Shown: in pieces, positions 6,029 to 24,400 of the stretch
Layout: the number at the start of each line of letters is the position of its first letter
How positions within the stretch are numbered: the stretch's first letter is position 1
Virus record (IMG/VR): IMGVR_UViG_3300044966_000721
Coordinates: 1-25,168 of that record
DNA length: 25,168 nucleotides
Strand: one strand, 5' to 3'
Origin: a virus
The notes under the pieces: generated by a model
Seen by the model: only the letters and a program-made list of their open reading frames with translations
Told to the model about the DNA's origin: nothing
Database searches by the model: none
Position numbers and translations under genes: made by a program

Positions 6029-6105
6029 TGGTTGTGGGAGATGGATTTGAACCATCGACCTTCTGGTTATGAGCCAGACGAGCTACCAGACTGCTCCATC
6101 CCACG
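6029..6105 (-). tRNA. tRNA-Met (CAT), initiator type
   Basis: A complete 77-nt tRNA on the - strand with encoded CCA end. The anticodon CAT is at + strand positions 6069-6071. It carries initiator tRNA-fMet hallmarks: an unpaired C1/A72 at the acceptor end, an A11-T24 pair in the D stem, and G-C pairs at 30:40 and 31:39 of the anticodon stem. The 29:41 pair is T-A instead of the usual third G-C. The T arm is GATGG-TTCAAAT-CCATC. The remaining acceptor stem pairs fully (GTGGGA with TCCCAC). It lies antisense to all protein genes in the window, between a candidate promoter at about 6151-6179 and the terminator at 5547-5576. It is intact and flanked by phage genes on both sides, so I read it as phage-encoded rather than host DNA. 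Confidence 0.93.
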
Positions 6106-12969: not shown

Positions 12970-13025
12970 TTTAATAAAAATGCCTTGCCATTGATGTTAA
13001 GTGTGTAATAGATGGCATATCGGCG

Positions 13026-13187
13026 CGGCACTTCCGTATAGTGCCGGTTGGCGGACCTAAACCGCAAAACGGTCGCTTATCTGCCCAGACGACGGGGGCT
13101 ACAAACAAGACTTTTTCGTTTTCCACACGGGAAACGCACGCTTGAACGTAGCTCAGTTTTTAACTGGATGGCTTGTTCAAGCTGAAC
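13026..13187 (+). ncRNA. Structured leader RNA upstream of the lectin-fold gene
   Basis: The 242 bases between 12970 and 13211 hold no gene but contain four ordered hairpins. CGGCACT pairs AGTGCCG (13026-13032 with 13040-13046). GCGG pairs CCGC (13051-13054 with 13062-13065). CGTTTTCC pairs GGGAAACG around an ACAC loop (13117-13124 with 13129-13136). GCTTGAAC pairs GTTCAAGC (13140-13147 with 13175-13182), enclosing CAGTT-TTT-AACTG (13154-13166). The last stem competes with GTTC-AAGCT-GAAC (13175-13187), which would allow two alternative folds just before the ATG at 13212. No known riboswitch or tRNA is recognised. A leader controlling the next gene or a free small RNA are both possible. Confidence 0.45.
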
Positions 13188-13211
13188 AACCAACACCACT
13201 TAAAAACTAAT

Positions 13212-14195
13212 ATGAAGTTCCTCAAAGGAATCTTGGCAGTTGCAATGCTCGCTGCTTTTGCAGGGGATGCGCACGCAGTCTGGAATACGTTTGTCACCGT
13301 CACTGGTGGCACGTTTGGAAATGGAACCAACTTCAAAGGGCAAACCGTTGCCACTGCGAGGATGGGTGAAACGGAAGTGAACTGGACCGAATTTCAAGGG
13401 GTTCGGACGTACGCTGCCGCAAACGGGTTCGACATCGGTTCTGTTGGAAGCGGCAAGTCTGCCACTGCGCCGGTTGAAAATGTCGATTGGTACGACGCTT
13501 TGAAGTGGTGCAATGCTGCCACTCTTCAGCAAGGCACGCTGACTCCTGTTTACAGCGTAGGGACACTCGCAATCACCGCTCTTTCGAGCTCTGGCACTGT
13601 TGCGACTGCAACCGTCCCCGGGGGCCACAAGCTGTCCACCGGAAATTGGGTGACTGTCTCAGGCGCAAGCGTGGCAGGGTACAACCTGACCCGGAGCGTG
13701 ACTGTCACGAGCCCAACTGCATTCCGCTACCTGACTGTGTCTGGCAGCATGGCTGTTGCAACCACTGCGTCGGCAAAAGTGTGGTACACGACTGGCGAAG
13801 TTGTCCCGACTGTAGAAACAGCAGGAACCGGCTACCGGCTTCCCACTGAACGGGAATGGGAATGGGCGGCTTGGGGCGGCGTTTTTAGCGGCACGTTTAC
13901 CTACTCTGGCAGCAACACTGCCAACACGGTGGCGTGGACCCGCGAAAACCAGCCAAGCCTCAATGCTGGAGCCCAGCCGGTTCGCACAAAAGGCTTCAAC
14001 GAAATCAACCTGTATGACATGTCCGGCAATGTAGCCGAATGGTGTTTTGATGACGCAACTCCGCTCTACGGGCGCCGGGTGCGTGGAGGTGGCTGGAGCT
14101 CCGACGCCGGACTCAGCCGCACGATGAATCGCGGATACCGGGATCCAGCCAAAGCAGAGGCTGCGTTCGGATTCCGAGTGTCCAGAAACAACTAA
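13212..14195 (+). CDS. Secreted FGE-sulfatase/C-type-lectin-fold protein with inserted beta domain
   Basis: A 327-residue protein of the formylglycine-generating-enzyme-like fold. Recognisable blocks in order: VNWTEFQGVRTYAAANG, PVENVDWYDALKWCNA (about 87-101), YRLPTEREWEWAAWGG (about 207-222), NLYDMSGNVAEWCFDD (about 263-278), VRGGGWSSD and a terminal AAFGFRVSR. The pair of active-site cysteines that true FGE enzymes carry after the RGG block is absent, so an enzyme role is unlikely and a ligand-binding one more so. Residues 1-22 (MKFLKGILAVAMLAAFAGDA then HA) form a signal peptide, odd for a capsid-region protein. About 75 residues of Ser/Thr/Val-rich beta sequence (roughly 116-190) interrupt the fold. 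I chose ATG 13212 because it begins the signal peptide. The same fold is used by diversity-generating retroelement targets, but no template repeat or reverse transcriptase is in this window. Confidence 0.8.
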   Translation: MKFLKGILAVAMLAAFAGDAHAVWNTFVTVTGGTFGNGTNFKGQTVATARMGETEVNWTEFQGVRTYAAANGFDIGSVGSGKSATAPVENVDWYDALKWCNAATLQQGTLTPVYSVGTLAITALSSSGTVATATVPGGHKLSTGNWVTVSGASVAGYNLTRSVTVTSPTAFRYLTVSGSMAVATTASAKVWYTTGEVVPTVETAGTGYRLPTEREWEWAAWGGVFSGTFTYSGSNTANTVAWTRENQPSLNAGAQPVRTKGFNEINLYDMSGNVAEWCFDDATPLYGRRVRGGGWSSDAGLSRTMNRGYRDPAKAEAAFGFRVSRNN

Positions 14196-14240: not shown

Positions 14241-15449
14241 ATGGCAAACGATTGTATCAATCTTGCAACCATCCAGAACTTCGCTTCTAAGGATGTCAAC
14301 CGCATCATCGGCCAGATCGCCAAGGTGCTTGCTCGCAAATCGCCCTACATCAACTCGATTGATGGCGGCACGCTGCCTAACGTCTCTGATGTGGTGCGCT
14401 CCGTGGTCGAGGAAATGGCGGTTCCTGCTGCCTCGCTGGCTTCTCCCACATTCGTGGAAGACACCTCGCTTTGCGGCATTGGCGCCACTCCTGACCAAGT
14501 CGGCTCGACCGAGTACCAGTTCAGCCTTCAGACGCTGCGCGGCGCCGGCCCCCGAGTTTGCGTCAAGCAGGCTCGTACTGCCTTCAAAGGCTCGTACTTG
14601 CAGGCGCAGGTGAGCTTGGAGAAGACGATCTTGCAGATCATCAACGCTGACATCCGGTATCAGTACCTGATCCAGTCTGGTGTGAAGTACGTTGTTAACA
14701 CAACTGCTTCATTCACAACGAATTTGACTGGTGATATGCAGAATATCAACACGAAGTTCGCACAGACGCTCCCGGACGGTCCTCTCAACTTCAAGACGCT
14801 CTACCGGGCCGGCACGTTCCTGCGTGAGGAAATGCTCGCAGAGCCTTTCGCTGCTAAGGAAGGCGAGTTCTTTCAGGTCATGTTAGGCTCCGACGCCATC
14901 GAAAACATCCGTAACGACGCGGACGTCAAGGAAGACCTGTTGTACCTCTCTGCCGGCTCGTTCAAGCTCGGCGAAGAGTCCATCAGCGGCTACCAATTTC
15001 AAGGCTATAGGGGGTTCGCATTCGGGATCGACCAGCAGCCTCTCCGGGCCACTGGCTTCGACTCCAACGGCAACCTCGTGCTGGTCAACCCGATCATCTC
15101 GACTGCCGTCACCAATGGTTTTGCGCAGCGTCGTAACCCGGACTGGGTCAACGCTCCGTACGAAGTTGGTTTCGTGATTGCTGGCGATTCGTTCAAGCGT
15201 TTGGTTCCTGAAGGCTACATGGGCGAAGGTACGTTCAAATTCGCGCCTCAGTTGGCCATGGGTGAGCTCGAGTGGACCTACTTCCGCGACAACGACTGCA
15301 ACCTGTACGGGGATTTCGGTCAGCACATCTACCAGATCAGCCGGGCTATCCAGCCGATCCGGCCACAGAATGTGATGCCGATCCTGTTCAAGCGTTGCCC
15401 GTTTGACGGACAGCCGCTGCCGTGCTCGACTGCTGCAACGGGTCTCTAA
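14241..15449 (+). CDS. Major capsid protein (probable)
   Basis: Best candidate for the main shell protein: 402 residues, soluble, no signal, following the scaffold gene and ending in a strong hairpin, as highly expressed capsid genes often do. Recognisable stretches include ANDCINLATIQNFASKDVNR at the start, VLARKSPYINSIDGGTLPNV, then KEGEFFQVMLGSDAIENIRN and NAPYEVGFVIAGDSFKRLVP. Mixed alpha/beta content would suit an HK97-type fold, but I cannot show the fold from sequence alone. Eight cysteines are a little unusual for a cytoplasmically assembled shell. The start follows cttattATG with no Shine-Dalgarno. The alternative is a different abundant head protein. Confidence 0.7.
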   Translation: MANDCINLATIQNFASKDVNRIIGQIAKVLARKSPYINSIDGGTLPNVSDVVRSVVEEMAVPAASLASPTFVEDTSLCGIGATPDQVGSTEYQFSLQTLRGAGPRVCVKQARTAFKGSYLQAQVSLEKTILQIINADIRYQYLIQSGVKYVVNTTASFTTNLTGDMQNINTKFAQTLPDGPLNFKTLYRAGTFLREEMLAEPFAAKEGEFFQVMLGSDAIENIRNDADVKEDLLYLSAGSFKLGEESISGYQFQGYRGFAFGIDQQPLRATGFDSNGNLVLVNPIISTAVTNGFAQRRNPDWVNAPYEVGFVIAGDSFKRLVPEGYMGEGTFKFAPQLAMGELEWTYFRDNDCNLYGDFGQHIYQISRAIQPIRPQNVMPILFKRCPFDGQPLPCSTAATGL

Positions 15450-15455
15450 AAGTGA

Positions 15456-15501
15456 CCTGACTACGAGGGGGTCGGCGCCATGCCGGCCCCTTCTAGTCAG
15501 G
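15456..15501 (+). terminator. Long hairpin downstream of the capsid gene
   Basis: A nearly perfect 20-bp stem: CCTGACTA (15456-15463) pairs TAGTCAGG (15494-15501), then after one bulged C the arm GAGGGGGTCGGC (15465-15476) pairs GCCGGCCCCTTC (15482-15493, two G-T pairs), closing a 5-base loop. It starts six bases after the capsid stop. There is no T-run behind it, so it may slow RNA decay or attenuate transcription rather than fully terminate, leaving the fibre genes at a lower level. Confidence 0.6.
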
Positions 15502-15518
15502 CCAAATTACTGCGACCT

Positions 15519-15806
15519 ATGTCCATTCTTTCCACAGCTAACTTTGAGGAATACAGCCTGCTTTTATTGCAGGACATTGCAGGATCTTCAGGAGTAGTAG
15601 ATATTCAGAGCAACATGTCTACTGCCGTGTACAGGCAGAACACATTGACTCTATTGCAGTACATAGCCGCAAATGGCATTTCGGGCGGCACGGGCGCTAC
15701 TGGAGCCACTGGCGTTCAAGGTCCATCTGGGCTGCCCGGAACGAATGCTCCAACGTGGGCGCCAAACCTAGCTTACACAACCGGCGCAATCGTCACCCTT
15801 CCATAG
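15519..15806 (+). CDS. Fibre N-terminal segment: anchor plus half of a carbohydrate-binding-like module
   Basis: A 95-residue ORF. It begins with a helical, non-repetitive segment (MSILSTANFEEYSLLLLQDI, then QSNMSTAVYRQNTLTLLQYI) that could attach a fibre to the particle. A short collagen-like run follows ([19 protein letters not shown]) and then APTWAPNLAYTTGAIVTLP before a TAG. The next gene starts two codons later in the same frame with [15 protein letters not shown] and NPAFWDP. Together these form one W..Y.tG.iV..(F)Y.A...P....NP.fW pattern, as in CBM5/12-like modules and in an intact copy inside the next protein (about residues 314-360). So this ORF looks like the front part of the large fibre, cut by an amber codon. 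An in-frame upstream ATG at 15480 lies in the hairpin loop; 15519 is preferred. Confidence 0.65.
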   Translation: MSILSTANFEEYSLLLLQDIAGSSGVVDIQSNMSTAVYRQNTLTLLQYIAANGISGGTGATGATGVQGPSGLPGTNAPTWAPNLAYTTGAIVTLP

Positions 15807-15809
15807 CAT

Positions 15810-18800
15810 ATGGCCGATTTTTACATTGCAAAACAGAACGTCCCGGCAGGCACGACTCCGGGTTCAAATCCGGCGTTTTGGGATCCGTTCATTCCTACGG
15901 GAGCCACGGGAGCCACTGGCGTAATGGGCGCCACTGGCGCTGGCGCAACTGGAGTTACGGGGGCGACTGGAGTTACGGGGGCGACTGGCAGTGTCGGAGC
16001 GACTGGAGCAGGGGTAACAGGCGCCACTGGAGCGACTGGTATTGGCGGGACAGGCGCAACAGGCGCCACTGGATCTGTCGGTGCCACTGGGGCTACTGGA
16101 AACACAGGCGCCACTGGCTCTGCTGGCTCTGCCGGCGCCACTGGATCTGGAGCTACAGGCGCCACAGGCATTGCCGGCCCATCAGGAGCGACTGGATCAG
16201 TCGGAGCGACTGGATTTGCTGGGGCCACCGGGGCCACTGGCATTGGAGCCACGGGAGCCACAGGTGTTGCTGGAGCCACCGGTCCATCTGGATCCGGAGC
16301 GACTGGAGCCACCGGGATCGGCGCCACCGGGGCGACGGGCTCAGTCGGGGCGACGGGTCCATCTGGCTCTGGGGCGACTGGAGCTACTGGAGCCACTGGA
16401 GTTACAGGATCCACGGGATCCACGGGATCTACCGGATCTACGGGATCTACGGGTGATACGGGCGCCACAGGAGCCACCGGTGCAGCGTCTATAATTCCGG
16501 GCGCAACCGGCGCAACCGGCGCTGCCGGCGCAACCGGAGTTGGCGCTACTGGCGCTACTGGCGCAGCGTCTACCGTTCCCGGATCTACCGGGGCTACAGG
16601 CGCTGTTGGAGCCACGGGGATTGGGGCCACAGGAGCTGCTGGAGCCACTGGAGCCACAGGAAACACGGGCGCTACTGGAGTTGGCGCTACGGGCGTCATT
16701 GGCCCAACAGGAGCCACAGGCGTTGCTGGCCCAACTGGACCGGCTATTACGCCATTCAATTTTCTAGGAGCTTACAGTGAGTCTGTTTCTTATGCTATTG
16801 GTGACGCGGTTGCTTATTCGGGCGTAAACTATGTTGCTATTTTGGCATCTACAAATGTTGTTCCGAATGAAAACCCCGGCACTTGGCAGCAAATAACCAC
16901 AGCAGGTCCGGTTGGCCCTACTGGTGCCACTGGTGAGACTGGACCCACTGGCGCTGGAGCTACTGGAGCCACCGGTGCAGATTCGACCGTTGCCGGCCCA
17001 TCCGGCGCAACTGGCCCATCTGGCGAAAGTGGCCCAACCGGCGCAACTGGCCCAGAGGGTCCAACTGGACCTGCCGGCGGACCAATCGGACCAACCGGCG
17101 CAACCGGCGCAGACTCGACCGTGCCCGGCCCATCCGGACCATCCGGACCATCCGGACCAACCGGCGCAACCGGCGCAGACTCGACCGTGCCCGGCCCATC
17201 CGGCTCATCCGGCGCAACCGGCCCAACCGGCGCAACCGGCGCAGACTCGACCGTGCCCGGGCCAATTGGCCCAACTGGCCCAACTGGAGACACCGGACCA
17301 ACCGGCGCAACCGGCGCAGACTCGACCGTGCCCGGCCCATCCGGCCCATCCGGCGCAACCGGCCCATCCGGCGCAGACTCGACCGTGCCCGGGCCAATTG
17401 GCCCATCCGGCGCAACTGGACCTGCCGGCGGCCCAGCCGGTGCGACTGGTGACACCGGTTCATCCGGTGCTACGGGCGCCACGGGTCCGTCTGGATCGGG
17501 TGCCACGGGCGCTACTGGTCCAGTTGGAGCAACTGGCATACAAGGCGACCCGGGAGGCGCTACAGGAGCCACGGGTGCCGCTTCGACTATTCCGGGCGCT
17601 ACAGGCGCCACTGGCCTTCAAGGCGCAACTGGGGCTGGCGTAACTGGCGCAACTGGCGCAGTTGGAGCAACTGGACCGAGCGGTCCAACTGGCGCTCCGG
17701 GCGACAAATATTTTGGCACTTGGTTTGGCACAATAGTTGTGGCGCTTGGAACTCAAGTGGCAACCATTGTTACAGGGCTCGCGTATTTGCCGGGTCAAAA
17801 GGCTAGGTTCCAAAGTTCTTTTGCGGGAGAGTTCCTCGCAACATTCAGTGAATACAACTCAGTGTCTGGGAATTGTGTATTCAACGTTACTTCGATCATC
17901 AGTAACTTGAGTGCTCCAATCTCTTCGTACACATGGGACATTGCCGCTGACATTGTTGGCGCTACTGGAGCTACCGGGGCCGGCGCTACTGGAGCCACTG
18001 GGATCGGAGCCTCCGGAGCCACCGGAGCCGTCGGTGCTACAGGACCATCCGGGTCGGGCGCAACGGGCGCTACTGGCCCCGTTGGAGCCACAGGCTTGCC
18101 CGGGCAGTCTTCGTCTTTCTTCAACTATCAGGCTGACACAGGCACGCAGGTATTGCCTCCAACAGATCCAATAGGAAACGGAAATGTTGTTTGGAACAAT
18201 GTAACACAGACAAGCGCAAATCAAATTGCGTTGTCCCACATTGACGGGCTTGGAAATGACATTGATGTGTTTTTCCCGCTCTACAAAGTGAATGACACGT
18301 TCATTTTGCAGGACAGAAACAACTCCGCAAATTTTCAACGCTGGAGAATTACAAGCACTCCAACAATTGGGGACAATGCTTACATTGTAATTCCTGTCGA
18401 GTTGGTCGCGTCTGGCGGCACGCCGCAGTTCTCGAACAATCACCAGCTCATCTTCGCCATCGTCACGTCTGGGCTACAAGGAGCTACTGGCGTGACCGGA
18501 GCCACTGGACCATCCGGCACTGCTGGAAGCAATGGAGCCACTGGAGCCACTGGACCATCCGGCACTGCTGGGGCCGCCGGACCGTCTGGAGCCACTGGCT
18601 CTACAGGCTCAACCGGGACCACTGGTTCTACGGGAGCCACCGGACCGTCTGGGGCTGGCGCTACGGGAGCCACCGGACCGTCTGGGGCTGGAGCGACTGG
18701 TGCCACTGGACCGTCTGGGTCTGGCGCTACGGGAGCCACTGGTCCGTCTGGACCGTCTGGATCTCCGGGAGGACCAATAGGCGTTACGGGCTCTACTGGA

Positions 18801-19979
18801 GCCACAGGTGCTACAGGATCAACTGGATTTTCATACGCTCCAATAGTTTCAACTTTTGGAGCAACTAACATTGGGATTGGTTCAAGAAATTTTACCGTAA
18901 ATACTCAAAGTGCAAACACTGCATTTGGTGTTGGAACACAAATAAAAATTAGCCTAAGTTCAAATCCATCAATTTGGATGATTGGAATTATAACCTATTA
19001 TGTAAATTTAGCTTTACAGGTTAATGTTACTTCGTTTAGTGGCAGTGGTAACCTTACTGGTTGGACAATCACATTTTTACCATTTCAAGAAATCGGGGCA
19101 ACTGGCGCCACTGGACCTGCCAACGGCCCAACTGGCCCAACTGGCCCAACTGGAGACACCGGACCACAAGGCACTGTAACCAGTGTTAATGTTCAAACAT
19201 TTACTAGCAGTGGCACATGGACTAAGCCTAATGGAGCAAAATCTGTACATGTAATATGTATTGGAGCAGGCGGAGGCGGAGGATCGGGAGCCGTAGATTC
19301 TGCCGGGAACGCGGTTGGCGGGGGCTTAGGAGGAGGCAGTGGTGGAATAACCACTGCAACGCTAGATGCTACACTTCTTCAACAAACAGAGACAGTAAGC
19401 GTCGGGGCTGGCGGAGCAGGTGCAGTTTCACGCTTAAATCCAAATAACGGAGTCAGCGGAACAAGTGGAACGGCTTCATCTTTTGGTCTTTGGGTGTCTG
19501 CCGCCGCCGGCACCTTTGGCTACGGCGGACTAAGAGGAGGTAGTGCAGAAGGACCAATAGCAAGTGGCGCCGTGAAAGCACTGTTCCAAGGAGCTAGTGG
19601 AGGAGGTATAGCCGGCGGTGGGCTTTCGGGACTTGCGGGAGGAAATTCGCTCGTCACCGGGGGCGGAGGCGGAGGCGGAGGCGTTACAACTGGAAATACA
19701 GTATACAATGGTGGAGTTGGAGGGATTGGCTATCAATATAACGGGCAAAACTCAACCGGAGCAGGAGCAGGAGTTAATGGAGTGGGCGTTCTAAATGCTC
19801 CTCTTGGTGGCAATGGCGGAGGAGGAGGAAATGCAAGCAGAACACAAGTGGCAATGCGCGGAGGTGACGGTGGATTTTACGGAGGAGGAGGGGGAGGAGG
19901 AGGAGCATCGCATGTTTTTAATTCAGGCGGAGGCGGCAATGGTGCGCAGGGCATTGTTGTTGTAACAACTTACTTTTAA
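15810..19979 (+). CDS. Giant collagen-like tail fibre with polyglycine-rich tip
   Basis: A 1389-residue receptor-binding fibre. Order of parts: rest of a carbohydrate-binding-like module (1-29), Gly-X-Y collagen stalk dominated by Gly-Ala-Thr (30-313), an intact carbohydrate-binding-like module (about 314-360, [16 protein letters not shown]), a second stalk rich in Gly-Pro-Ser with STVP interruptions (367-631), a beta domain (632-716), stalk, a 125-residue domain starting [11 protein letters not shown] (about 766-890), stalk, a beta domain of the type repeated in the second fibre (about 1006-1096), and the tip. The tip begins [18 protein letters not shown] and is full of GGGGG runs, as in the polyglycine-helix adhesins of T-even-like phages (gp38 of S16) and Gly_rich domains. 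Collagen-like stalks trimerise. The start context tagcatATGg matches other starts in this phage. Confidence 0.88.
17109..17390 (+). repeat. Five direct repeats encoding the GADSTVPG interruption
   Basis: An 18-bp sequence, gcagactcgaccgtgccc, occurs without change at 17109, 17175, 17241, 17316 and 17373 (spacings 66, 66, 75 and 57 bp, all multiples of three). It encodes ADSTVP and inserts four residues into the Gly-X-Y pattern. Identity at DNA level, including third bases, points to recent in-frame expansion or conversion. Confidence 0.9.
18105..18480 (+). repeat. Duplicated fibre domain, copy 1
   Basis: Encodes the 125-residue domain running from [13 protein letters not shown] to the motif [15 protein letters not shown] diverged copy lies at 23058-23432 in the second fibre. 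The two share an exact 38-base block (18237-18274 and 23190-23227) and most of the protein sequence (for example [20 protein letters not shown]). The copies sit in otherwise different domain orders. Confidence 0.88.
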
Positions 19980-21428: not shown

Positions 21429-24400
21429 ATGAGCTGTGGCTGTGACGATTCAAATAGCGGGGCGTACCTTGGGGTTTGCCGGCAAGACATTCCCTACCCT
21501 CAAATCAGTGCGGAGTCGGTCCCGTCGCTGATCAGCAATTTGACGTTGTCCCTGTACGGGGAGATCACAAAGAGTGTCTCTGGCGGAAAGATAGTTTGGA
21601 CAATTCCATGTGACCCAAATCGGTCAGCCACGTTGTTTAATATCCCTCGAAACGAAGGTGAGGGGCTCATGTGCTATATGATGCGAGCACTTCAGTTGTC
21701 CAATATCGTTGGCGCGACTGGAGTAACTGGAGCAACTGGAATTGGCTTTCCTGCGCTTACATCACTTGCGAATCTTGAGCTCAGTGCTGGCACAAAGACA
21801 TTTACGGTTAATCTTAGCTCTTCGAGTGTTGCCTATGACAGCAGCATGCGTGTCAAAATTCAGCGCACTGGTAACTTTCCTACTTTTTGGATGGCTGGCT
21901 TTATCAGTTCGTATTCTGGGACCACCATGGTGGTGTCTGTTGATACCGTAAGCAATATAGGAACATTTTCAAATTGGACAATTACTCCATTTCCCGTGCA
22001 GGGAATACAGGGGGCAACCGGAGCTACTGGTTTAACCGGAGCAACTGGAGCAACTGGTCTAGCTGGCTCTACAGGCTCTACAGGCTCAACCGGGACCACT
22101 GGCTCAACTGGCGCCACTGGTGGTGTGGGCTCTACGGGCTCTACAGGGGCTACTGGACCTGCGTCAACCGTCCCCGGACCTACTGGGGCCACCGGCTTGT
22201 TGGGCGCAACTGGTGCTACGGGAGTTGGTGCTACGGGTGCCACTGGAGTTGCTGGAGCCACTGGACCTGCCGGAGCCACCGGAGCCACCGGAGCCACCGG
22301 AGTTGGATACGCAGGGCTTACATCTTCGACCCTACAGAGCGTAGGGTCCGGTTCAAAGACCTTTGTCGTAAACGCAGCATCAACAGCGTCTGCTTTTGTT
22401 GCAACTCAACGAGTCAGGGTGACAAATACTGTCACTCCGTCCAATTGGATGGAGGGAGTTGTAACTTCGTACAGCTCAACCAATTTAATAGTTAATGTAG
22501 ACTTCATCAATGGAGCCGGCGCGTATTCAACTTGGACCATCGGTCTGTCCGGCGGAATCGGGTCTACGGGCGCCACTGGAGCCGGAGTTACGGGCGCCAC
22601 TGGAGTTGCTGGAGTTGCTGGATCCACGGGCGCCACTGGACCGTCTGGGTCTGGAGCAACAGGAGCTACGGGTGTTGCTGGAGGTGCCGGGGCTACAGGA
22701 GCCACTGGATCTGTGGGGGCGACAGGAACTGGTTCTACTGGTGCCACTGGTGCCACTGGAGTTCCCGGAGCTACAGGAGCCACTGGAACTGGTGCTACTG
22801 GCGCCACCGGAGCCGCATCTACTGTTCCCGGGGCCACGGGCGCCACTGGAAACGGAGCCACTGGAGCCACTGGAGCTGCATCTACTGTTCCCGGAGCTAC
22901 AGGTGCCACCGGACCATCTGGATCCACTGGATCCACTGGCGCCACCGGAGCTGCATCTACTGTTCCCGGAGCCACAGGCGCTACCGGAGCCACCGGAATT
23001 GGCGTTGCCGGAGCCACCGGAGCAACTGGCACAATTGGCGCTACTGGATTGACAGGGCAATCTTCGTCATTTTTTAACTATCAAGCGGACACAGGAACGC
23101 AAACATTGCCTCCAACGCAGGCAATGGTTAATGGTCACATTGTTTGGAATAATTCAACTCAAACAAGCGCAACTCAAATTGCGTTATCTCACATTGACGG
23201 GCTTGGAAATGACATTGATGTGTTTTTTCCGCTCTATAAAATTAACGATACGTTTGTTTTGCAGGACAAAAATAATTCTGCAAATTTTCAGAGTTGGAAA
23301 ATCACAGGGACTCCAACAATTGGAAACAATGCCTACATTGTAATTCCAGTCACATTATTGACGTCTGGTGGAGTTTCTCAATTTGCAAACAATCACCAGC
23401 TTATTTTTGCTGTTGTTACATCTGGATTACAAGGAGCCACGGGAGTTACCGGAGCGACAGGAGTTACTGGATTTACTGGGGCAACCGGAGCAACTGGAGC
23501 TGTATCTACCGTTCCCGGAGCCACTGGAGCCACTGGAGCTGCGTCTACTGTTCCCGGAGCTACAGGAGCCACAGGAGCCGGAGCGACTGGGGCCACTGGA
23601 CCTGTTGGTGCTGGTTTTACTGCTCTGACGTCTTTGAGTAGTTTTGCTATTGGAACTGGGTCAAAGACATTTGTCGTAAACACAAGTTCAACATCTTCAG
23701 CGTTTGTTGCTGGGCAAAGGGTCAGGATTGCATCCACTGCTGTTCCAAGCAATTACATGGAAGGTCCGATTACGTCTTACTCTTCCACAAATCTTACGGT
23801 AAACGTAGATATTGTAAGTGGCTCCGGAACAACAGCGTCTTGGATTATATTTCTAGCAGGCAGTGCTGGGGCAACGGGCGCTACTGGCCCAGTTGGAGCA
23901 ACCGGATTTAGCCTTATTGGGCCATCTGGAGCAGCCGGAGCAAATGGAGCAGTGGGCTCCACTGGAGCAACCGGAGTTACCGGAGCCACAGGCGTTGCAT
24001 CTACTGTTCCCGGAGCAACCGGAGCAACCGGATCTGTATCTACAGTGCCCGGACCTACAGGCGCTACAGGCGCCACAGGCGCTGCGTCTACTGTTCCCGG
24101 ACCTACAGGCGCCACAGGCGCTGTGTCTACTGTTCCCGGACCTACAGGCGCGACCGGGCCATCTGGATCCGGAGCTACCGGAGCCACTGGCCCAACTGGA
24201 GTGGGCGCCACTGGTGCTACTGGCATAGGCTTTCCGGCACTTCTTTCATCAACGTTCCATTCGATTACTACTGGCGGCAAGGTTTTTGCTATTAGTCCTC
24301 CGGCTGAAAACAGTGCATATGTAAACGGGCAACGGGTTAGAGCTACTGTTCCCGGAGAACCAAATCGATACGTTGAAGGTCCACTACAAGCCTATTCAGC

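Follow-up and report, generated by a model that had tools for sequence, protein, structure and literature searches.

An accessory phage protein with an FGE/C-type-lectin scaffold and an inserted FCCH/endosialidase-type barrel, encoded behind a conserved leader of the probable capsid gene

Phage 'moron' proteins that act at the envelope or in superinfection exclusion are accessory, exported, and optional among close relatives. Phage endosialidases, in turn, carry a beta-barrel; in the K1F enzyme, this barrel provides one of three sites for polysialic acid and withstands mutation (PMC12632334). The C-type-lectin fold of the variable protein TaqVP and of other variable proteins has a site, 'insert 2', that tolerates insertions (PMC6328139). 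Here we describe a phage locus that combines traits of these systems. Each single part of the resulting architecture, an FGE-type lectin with an FCCH/endosialidase barrel, predicted to be exported and encoded behind a capsid leader, is of a known kind, and the combination appears to be new in the collections searched.

The window analyzed here is one virus record of 25,168 bases (IMGVR_UViG_3300044966_000721), a 25-kb fragment of a phage whose relatives reach ~57-66 kb. An open reading frame on the plus strand (13212-14195), conserved among relatives, encodes a 327 aa protein (hereafter, the FGE protein), and is followed directly by the probable capsid gene. The ATG at 13212 coincides with the start aligned in the orthologues; an alternative upstream TTG at 13173 is possible. 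The parts of this region are the following:

13212..13277, + strand: Sec-type signal peptide, residues 1-22 (MKFLKGILAVAMLAAFAGDAHA; cut predicted before VW), inferred from hydropathy, with n, h, and c regions shared by 13 orthologues
13278..13553, + strand: FGE/C-type-lectin domain, N-terminal half, residues 23-114 (PF03781; structure match; alignments)
13554..13784, + strand: inserted beta-barrel domain, residues 115-191 (77 residues), with the predicted fold of the E1 FCCH and endosialidase barrels (absent in orthologue L059 and in bacterial FGEs; predicted structure; profile match; virion-protein copies)
13785..14192, + strand: FGE/C-type-lectin domain, C-terminal half, residues 192-327, cysteine-free after 278 (PF03781; structure match)
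14241..15449, + strand: probable major capsid protein gene, 402 aa, directly downstream of the FGE gene (inferred from conservation and position)

The lectin fold proposed in the initial annotation is well supported: the protein matches PF03781 (FGE-sulfatase) with an E-value of 6.1e-23, scoring 82.2 bits where the cut-off is 23.3, and the match spans the insert. The best sequence matches in the PDB are TvpA, the Treponema variable protein (2.8e-15), and CarF (5aoh; 5.9e-12), both stronger with a profile. An AlphaFold2 model of the full protein, built from 15 orthologues (pTM 0.79), matches CarF (5aoh, Z 17.1) and TvpA (2y3c, Z 14.6), with low confidence in part of the C-terminal FGE half (38-63 in ten-residue blocks from residue 221 to 320); PorK and PvdO are also among the matches, PvdO and CarF being among the best structural ones. 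The enzyme cysteines are missing, as had been suggested. The protein has just two cysteines, C100 and C278, and residues 279-327, the stretch expected to hold the catalytic pair of an FGE, contain none, so that the protein does not qualify as a formylglycine-generating enzyme and FGE chemistry is excluded; in some orthologues, one cysteine is retained after the RGG motif in the alignment. The N-terminus, likewise read earlier as a Sec signal, combines a lysine-containing n-region with a hydrophobic core (best ten-residue mean Kyte-Doolittle hydropathy 2.2-3.2 in the window protein and all 13 orthologues examined) and, in the window protein, a predicted A-H-A|V cleavage motif. By hydropathy, all these proteins thus show the simple n, h, and c features expected of Sec export.

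The closest similarity of the scaffold is to Verrucomicrobiota surface proteins, and its kinship to Chthoniobacteraceae proteins hints at a host in this phylum. No relative of the capsid protein was found in 392 (5 + 387) Verrucomicrobiota genomes, a result that is uninformative on the host. There is no evident Shine-Dalgarno sequence at several checked starts, those of the FGE and capsid genes included (e.g. 13212, 14241, 12373), which may hint at the host group. A tRNA-Met (CAT) gene lies at 6029-6105 on the minus strand, opposite to the structural genes. Among named phages, the FGE gene matched only distant Microcystis and gut phages, the terminase yielded one weak match only, and neither the capsid protein nor the insert alone (tblastn) had any match. 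In a second group of viral contigs (loci L007-L017), the FGE proteins lack the insert, begin with a signal-like N-terminus, and carry an N-terminal 'LERADSLHGPWV' stretch; nothing similar to the other proteins of the window was found in these loci. A Foldseek search of BFVD listed no full-length relative of the same architecture, which is weak evidence.

The beta-type insert of about 75 residues, originally placed at roughly 13557-13785, is delimited here at 13554-13784. In alignments with FGE proteins of Verrucomicrobiota and with other viral FGE proteins, it replaces a hairpin of about six residues with 77; the domain is absent from the Verrucomicrobiota proteins, from that other group of viral FGE proteins, and from all bacterial FGEs fetched. 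An orthologue at the same locus (L059, 251 aa) lacks the insert and retains the six-residue hairpin TVNGQT (PVY-TVNGQT-YKTGE), so the insert is a module and not part of the fold, in agreement with its earlier description as an interruption of that fold. The insertion point lies between helix alpha2 and strand beta2 and corresponds to 'insert 2' of TaqVP. In a tree of the FGE halves alone, all FGEs that phages encode at this locus fall into a single clade (100/98), within which L059 pairs with the insert-bearing L188, and a grouping of all insert carriers apart from L059 is disfavored (AU p 0.021). The most parsimonious history would have the insert gained once and lost once; replacement through recombination is a possible alternative. 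The gene is under strong purifying selection, with dN/dS of ~0.04-0.15 in all whole-gene comparisons, and the insert usually evolves 1.3-2x faster at non-synonymous sites than the rest of the gene.

The predicted structure of the insert (pLDDT 83) is an FCCH-type beta-barrel, most similar to the FCCH domain of the ubiquitin E1 UBA6 (Z 11.4, rmsd 2.3, 79 residues), followed by the phage endosialidases phi92 (Z 9.6) and EndoNF (residues 421-507, Z 9.1) and by phage tail-tube proteins (Z 8.6); EndoNF gives the best Foldseek E-value. At the sequence level, the insert profile matches nothing in the PDB but the phi92 endosialidase (4hiz, E 0.0035). The match to PF12195 (endosialidase beta-barrel) is weak (one of the 20 relatives, E 0.021), and PF16190 (E1 FCCH) scores 12 bits, below its cut-off of 29.5, with weak matches in six of the 20. 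Among predicted viral structures, the same domain is seen in baseplate, fiber, and tailspike proteins. The insert profile also detects the domain twice in a protein of 761 aa (L034:7856-10138) and further copies in L001:10272-12788, both encoded downstream of the capsid gene and assigned by PHROGs to virion structural proteins (phrog_1645), which bears out the proposed resemblance to repeats of fiber proteins. Given these copies and the lack of the domain in bacterial FGEs, the insert was probably taken from phage virion proteins.

The open reading frame at 14241-15449 encodes the most conserved protein tested and matched no named family; its conservation and position make it the probable major capsid protein. 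A scan based on the capsid protein, made without regard to the FGE gene, recovered 146 relatives, and in the best 80 of these, which were kept, the capsid proteins are 81-96% identical. The FGE gene is absent upstream of the capsid gene in most of these 80 and is thus accessory. It is carried by 20 records, including the window, with the insert in 19 of them; exactly one copy is present in each of the five carriers tested, and none anywhere in 18 near-complete relatives (57-64 kb). Downstream of the capsid gene in the window, collagen-like Gly-X-Y stretches (15480-15806, 15810-19979, and about 21860-24280) are interspersed with beta-type segments; in L001 and L022, this position is occupied by a different virion protein.

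The initial annotation, which placed the FGE gene in the head gene block, did not note that a conserved, structured leader RNA precedes it and that the capsid gene follows. The sequence between 13016 and 13209, which has homologues (nhmmer) immediately in front of the capsid gene of relatives, includes a structured core:

13016..13209, + strand: conserved leader, ~200 nt, which precedes the capsid gene in relatives and the FGE gene here (nhmmer; leader-to-capsid distances)
13020..13102, + strand: leader RNA core, three tandem H-type pseudoknots (covariation in 28 relatives; per-sequence stems in 67 relatives)
+ strand: pseudoknot 1, stems 13021-13023/13034-13036 with 13027-13031/13041-13045
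+ strand: pseudoknot 2, stems 13046-13048/13055-13057 with 13051-13054/13062-13065
+ strand: pseudoknot 3, stems 13072-13075/13090-13093 with 13083-13086/13096-13099

The leader is present in nearly all relatives in this phage group (e.g. L087, 5778-5978; L064, 5790-5993). It adjoins the capsid gene in 62 loci, in six of which the capsid frame merely starts further upstream; in L033, L034, L037, and L075, this frame begins ~40-50 codons earlier, immediately after the leader. In 36 loci (20 records including the window), leader and capsid gene are separated by 0.8-1.05 kb, always occupied by the FGE gene alone. The slot upstream of the leader (loci L027-L096; 11373-12969 in the window) holds varying glycosyltransferase-like, methyltransferase-like, and other genes, as named from their sequences, and is possibly a variable cargo site concerned with glycans.

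A pseudoknot search in the first half of 67 distinct leaders gave a mean best score of 9.4, compared to 3.5 in dinucleotide shuffles, and for 56 of the 67, at most 5% of the shuffles reached the observed score. Among the 28 alignable leaders, the three crossing helix pairs comprise 95.0% standard pairs (77.9% in shuffles), 16 of 24 pairs show changes on both sides (10.0 in shuffles), and the covariation score is 0.514 (0.191, sd 0.013, in shuffles), these shuffles ignoring relatedness. When the pairing partners are slid by 1-3 columns, a control that preserves relatedness, pairing falls to 28-52%, in a comparison that favors the unslid structure insofar as it was drawn from the same 28 sequences. 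The leader of the window itself forms all six stems. RNAalifold finds almost no structure in the full alignment of 67 leaders, because pseudoknots and gaps defeat this method. The window leader has no Rfam match even at E 1, and none was found at the gathering score for the window and five relatives; promoter and terminator scans gave results near chance. A literature search, with most subscription journals outside its reach, returned no description of a capsid-leader pseudoknot RNA.

From its position, the leader would act in capsid expression. We consider it possible, and put it forward with some reserve, that it represents an undescribed class of cis-acting RNA controlling capsid expression in a large group of uncultured phages, and that the FGE-FCCH gene settled behind it. 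During lysis, an exported lectin with a tailspike domain would then be made in amounts comparable to those of the capsid protein and could, for instance, coat the envelope against re-adsorption or rival phages. A chain of covarying pseudoknots ahead of the gene for the most abundant protein would be a new handle on the tuning of capsid synthesis, and of the two items, the leader RNA may hold the greater novelty.

For the FGE protein, the reading that we tentatively prefer, at somewhat less than even confidence, is that of an exported, non-enzymatic binding protein, co-expressed with the capsid and acting at the host envelope to lower re-adsorption or to exclude competitors. The FGE gene would be read together with the capsid gene from the capsid leader, with a transcript start upstream of the leader; the protein would therefore probably be made late and abundantly, and would leave the cytoplasm via Sec. 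Its C-type-lectin/FGE scaffold carries a spliced-in FCCH/endosialidase-type barrel, of the kind used in a virion protein of the same phages, and the exported protein may bind envelope or extracellular glycans or surface proteins, most likely lowering the re-adsorption of progeny or excluding competitors. Coating of the cell, a block to superinfection, and glycan binding, all suggested initially, are plausible. Several points count against this reading: baseplate and tube proteins contain the FCCH-like fold too and need not use it to bind sugar, the model of the C-terminal FGE half is of low confidence, and the position beside the capsid gene would also suit a virion protein. PADLOC returned no defense-system match, which says nothing on exclusion. 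If the preferred reading holds, the phage would have armed a lectin fold that is derived from the host and exported with one of the domains of its virion proteins; the location of this accessory gene under the capsid leader points to strong expression late in infection. The insert-plus and insert-minus alleles that occur naturally at one locus make the role of the insert directly testable.

The strongest alternative is that the protein belongs to the virion, as an accessory that decorates the capsid or binds the receptor; it would be exported to the periplasm and join the particles at lysis. The invariable position of the gene between the leader and the capsid gene fits this alternative, as do the nature of the insert, a module of phage virion proteins, and the use of the FGE-type lectin fold as the receptor-binding domain in the phage protein Mtd (PMC6328139). 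We nevertheless regard it as unlikely, in view of the conserved signal peptide, the lack of a visible trimerization or attachment domain, and the absence of the gene from most relatives with 81-96% identical capsids. An exported enzyme acting on envelope components by a chemistry other than that of FGE, PvdO/CarF-like or new, is less probable still: several FGE-fold proteins are enzymes, CarF and PvdO among the best structural matches included, whereas the cysteine-free stretch at 279-327 excludes the FGE reaction and the best PDB sequence match, TvpA, is a variable binding protein. Mimicry of, or interference with, an FGE-fold surface component of the host, such as the GldK/PorK-type lipoproteins of gliding or type IX secretion, would account for the weak similarity to the GldK and GldJ profiles and for the matched PorK structures; however, the scores are far under the family cut-offs (41.8 against 350 bits, on which GldK/PorK membership was rejected) and there is no lipobox, which makes this explanation highly improbable.

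Of the initial annotation, the lectin fold, the foreign beta domain, the loss of cysteines, the export signal, and the link to fiber and virion proteins stood, and the proposed relation to diversity-generating retroelements fell. We give next to no credence to the FGE protein being the variable protein of such an element, despite a fold subtype shared with TvpA, Mtd, and TaqVP (PMC6328139) and TvpA as the top sequence match. No reverse transcriptase (PF00078) was detected in the 25-kb window or in 25 related records, several of 60-94 kb, in searches that recovered the positive controls, and the window contains no second copy of 14050-14195 that could serve as a template repeat. The tail of the gene is not hypervariable (dN/dS <1, not consistently faster than the rest), shows no consistent excess of substitutions involving adenine, and has few AAY codons. 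For the near-complete relatives, this assignment is refuted.

Compared with known systems, the window protein has in common with TvpA and TaqVP the FGE subtype of the C-type-lectin fold and the 'insert 2' site (PMC6328139), and differs from those systems in lacking a reverse transcriptase, a template repeat, and adenine-biased variation. With the PF03781 family at large (CarF 5aoh, TvpA 2y3c, human FGE), it shares the fold and the sequence signature, with a strong profile match, but it is phage-encoded and predicted to be exported, has no catalytic cysteines, and accommodates a barrel between alpha2 and beta2. The accessory, apparently exported, and optional status of the FGE gene resembles that of 'morons', to which it has no sequence relation; unlike these, it lies behind the capsid leader and is not a free-standing unit. 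The FCCH domain of ubiquitin E1 (PF16190) has the same predicted fold and is likewise an inserted module, with sequence similarity below the cut-off and no link to ubiquitin chemistry. The endosialidase barrel (PF12195; phi92 4hiz, K1F/EndoNF) also shares the predicted fold, with a weak profile and sequence match to the insert; there, the barrel is part of a tailspike, whereas here it is set into a lectin-fold protein that is probably exported.
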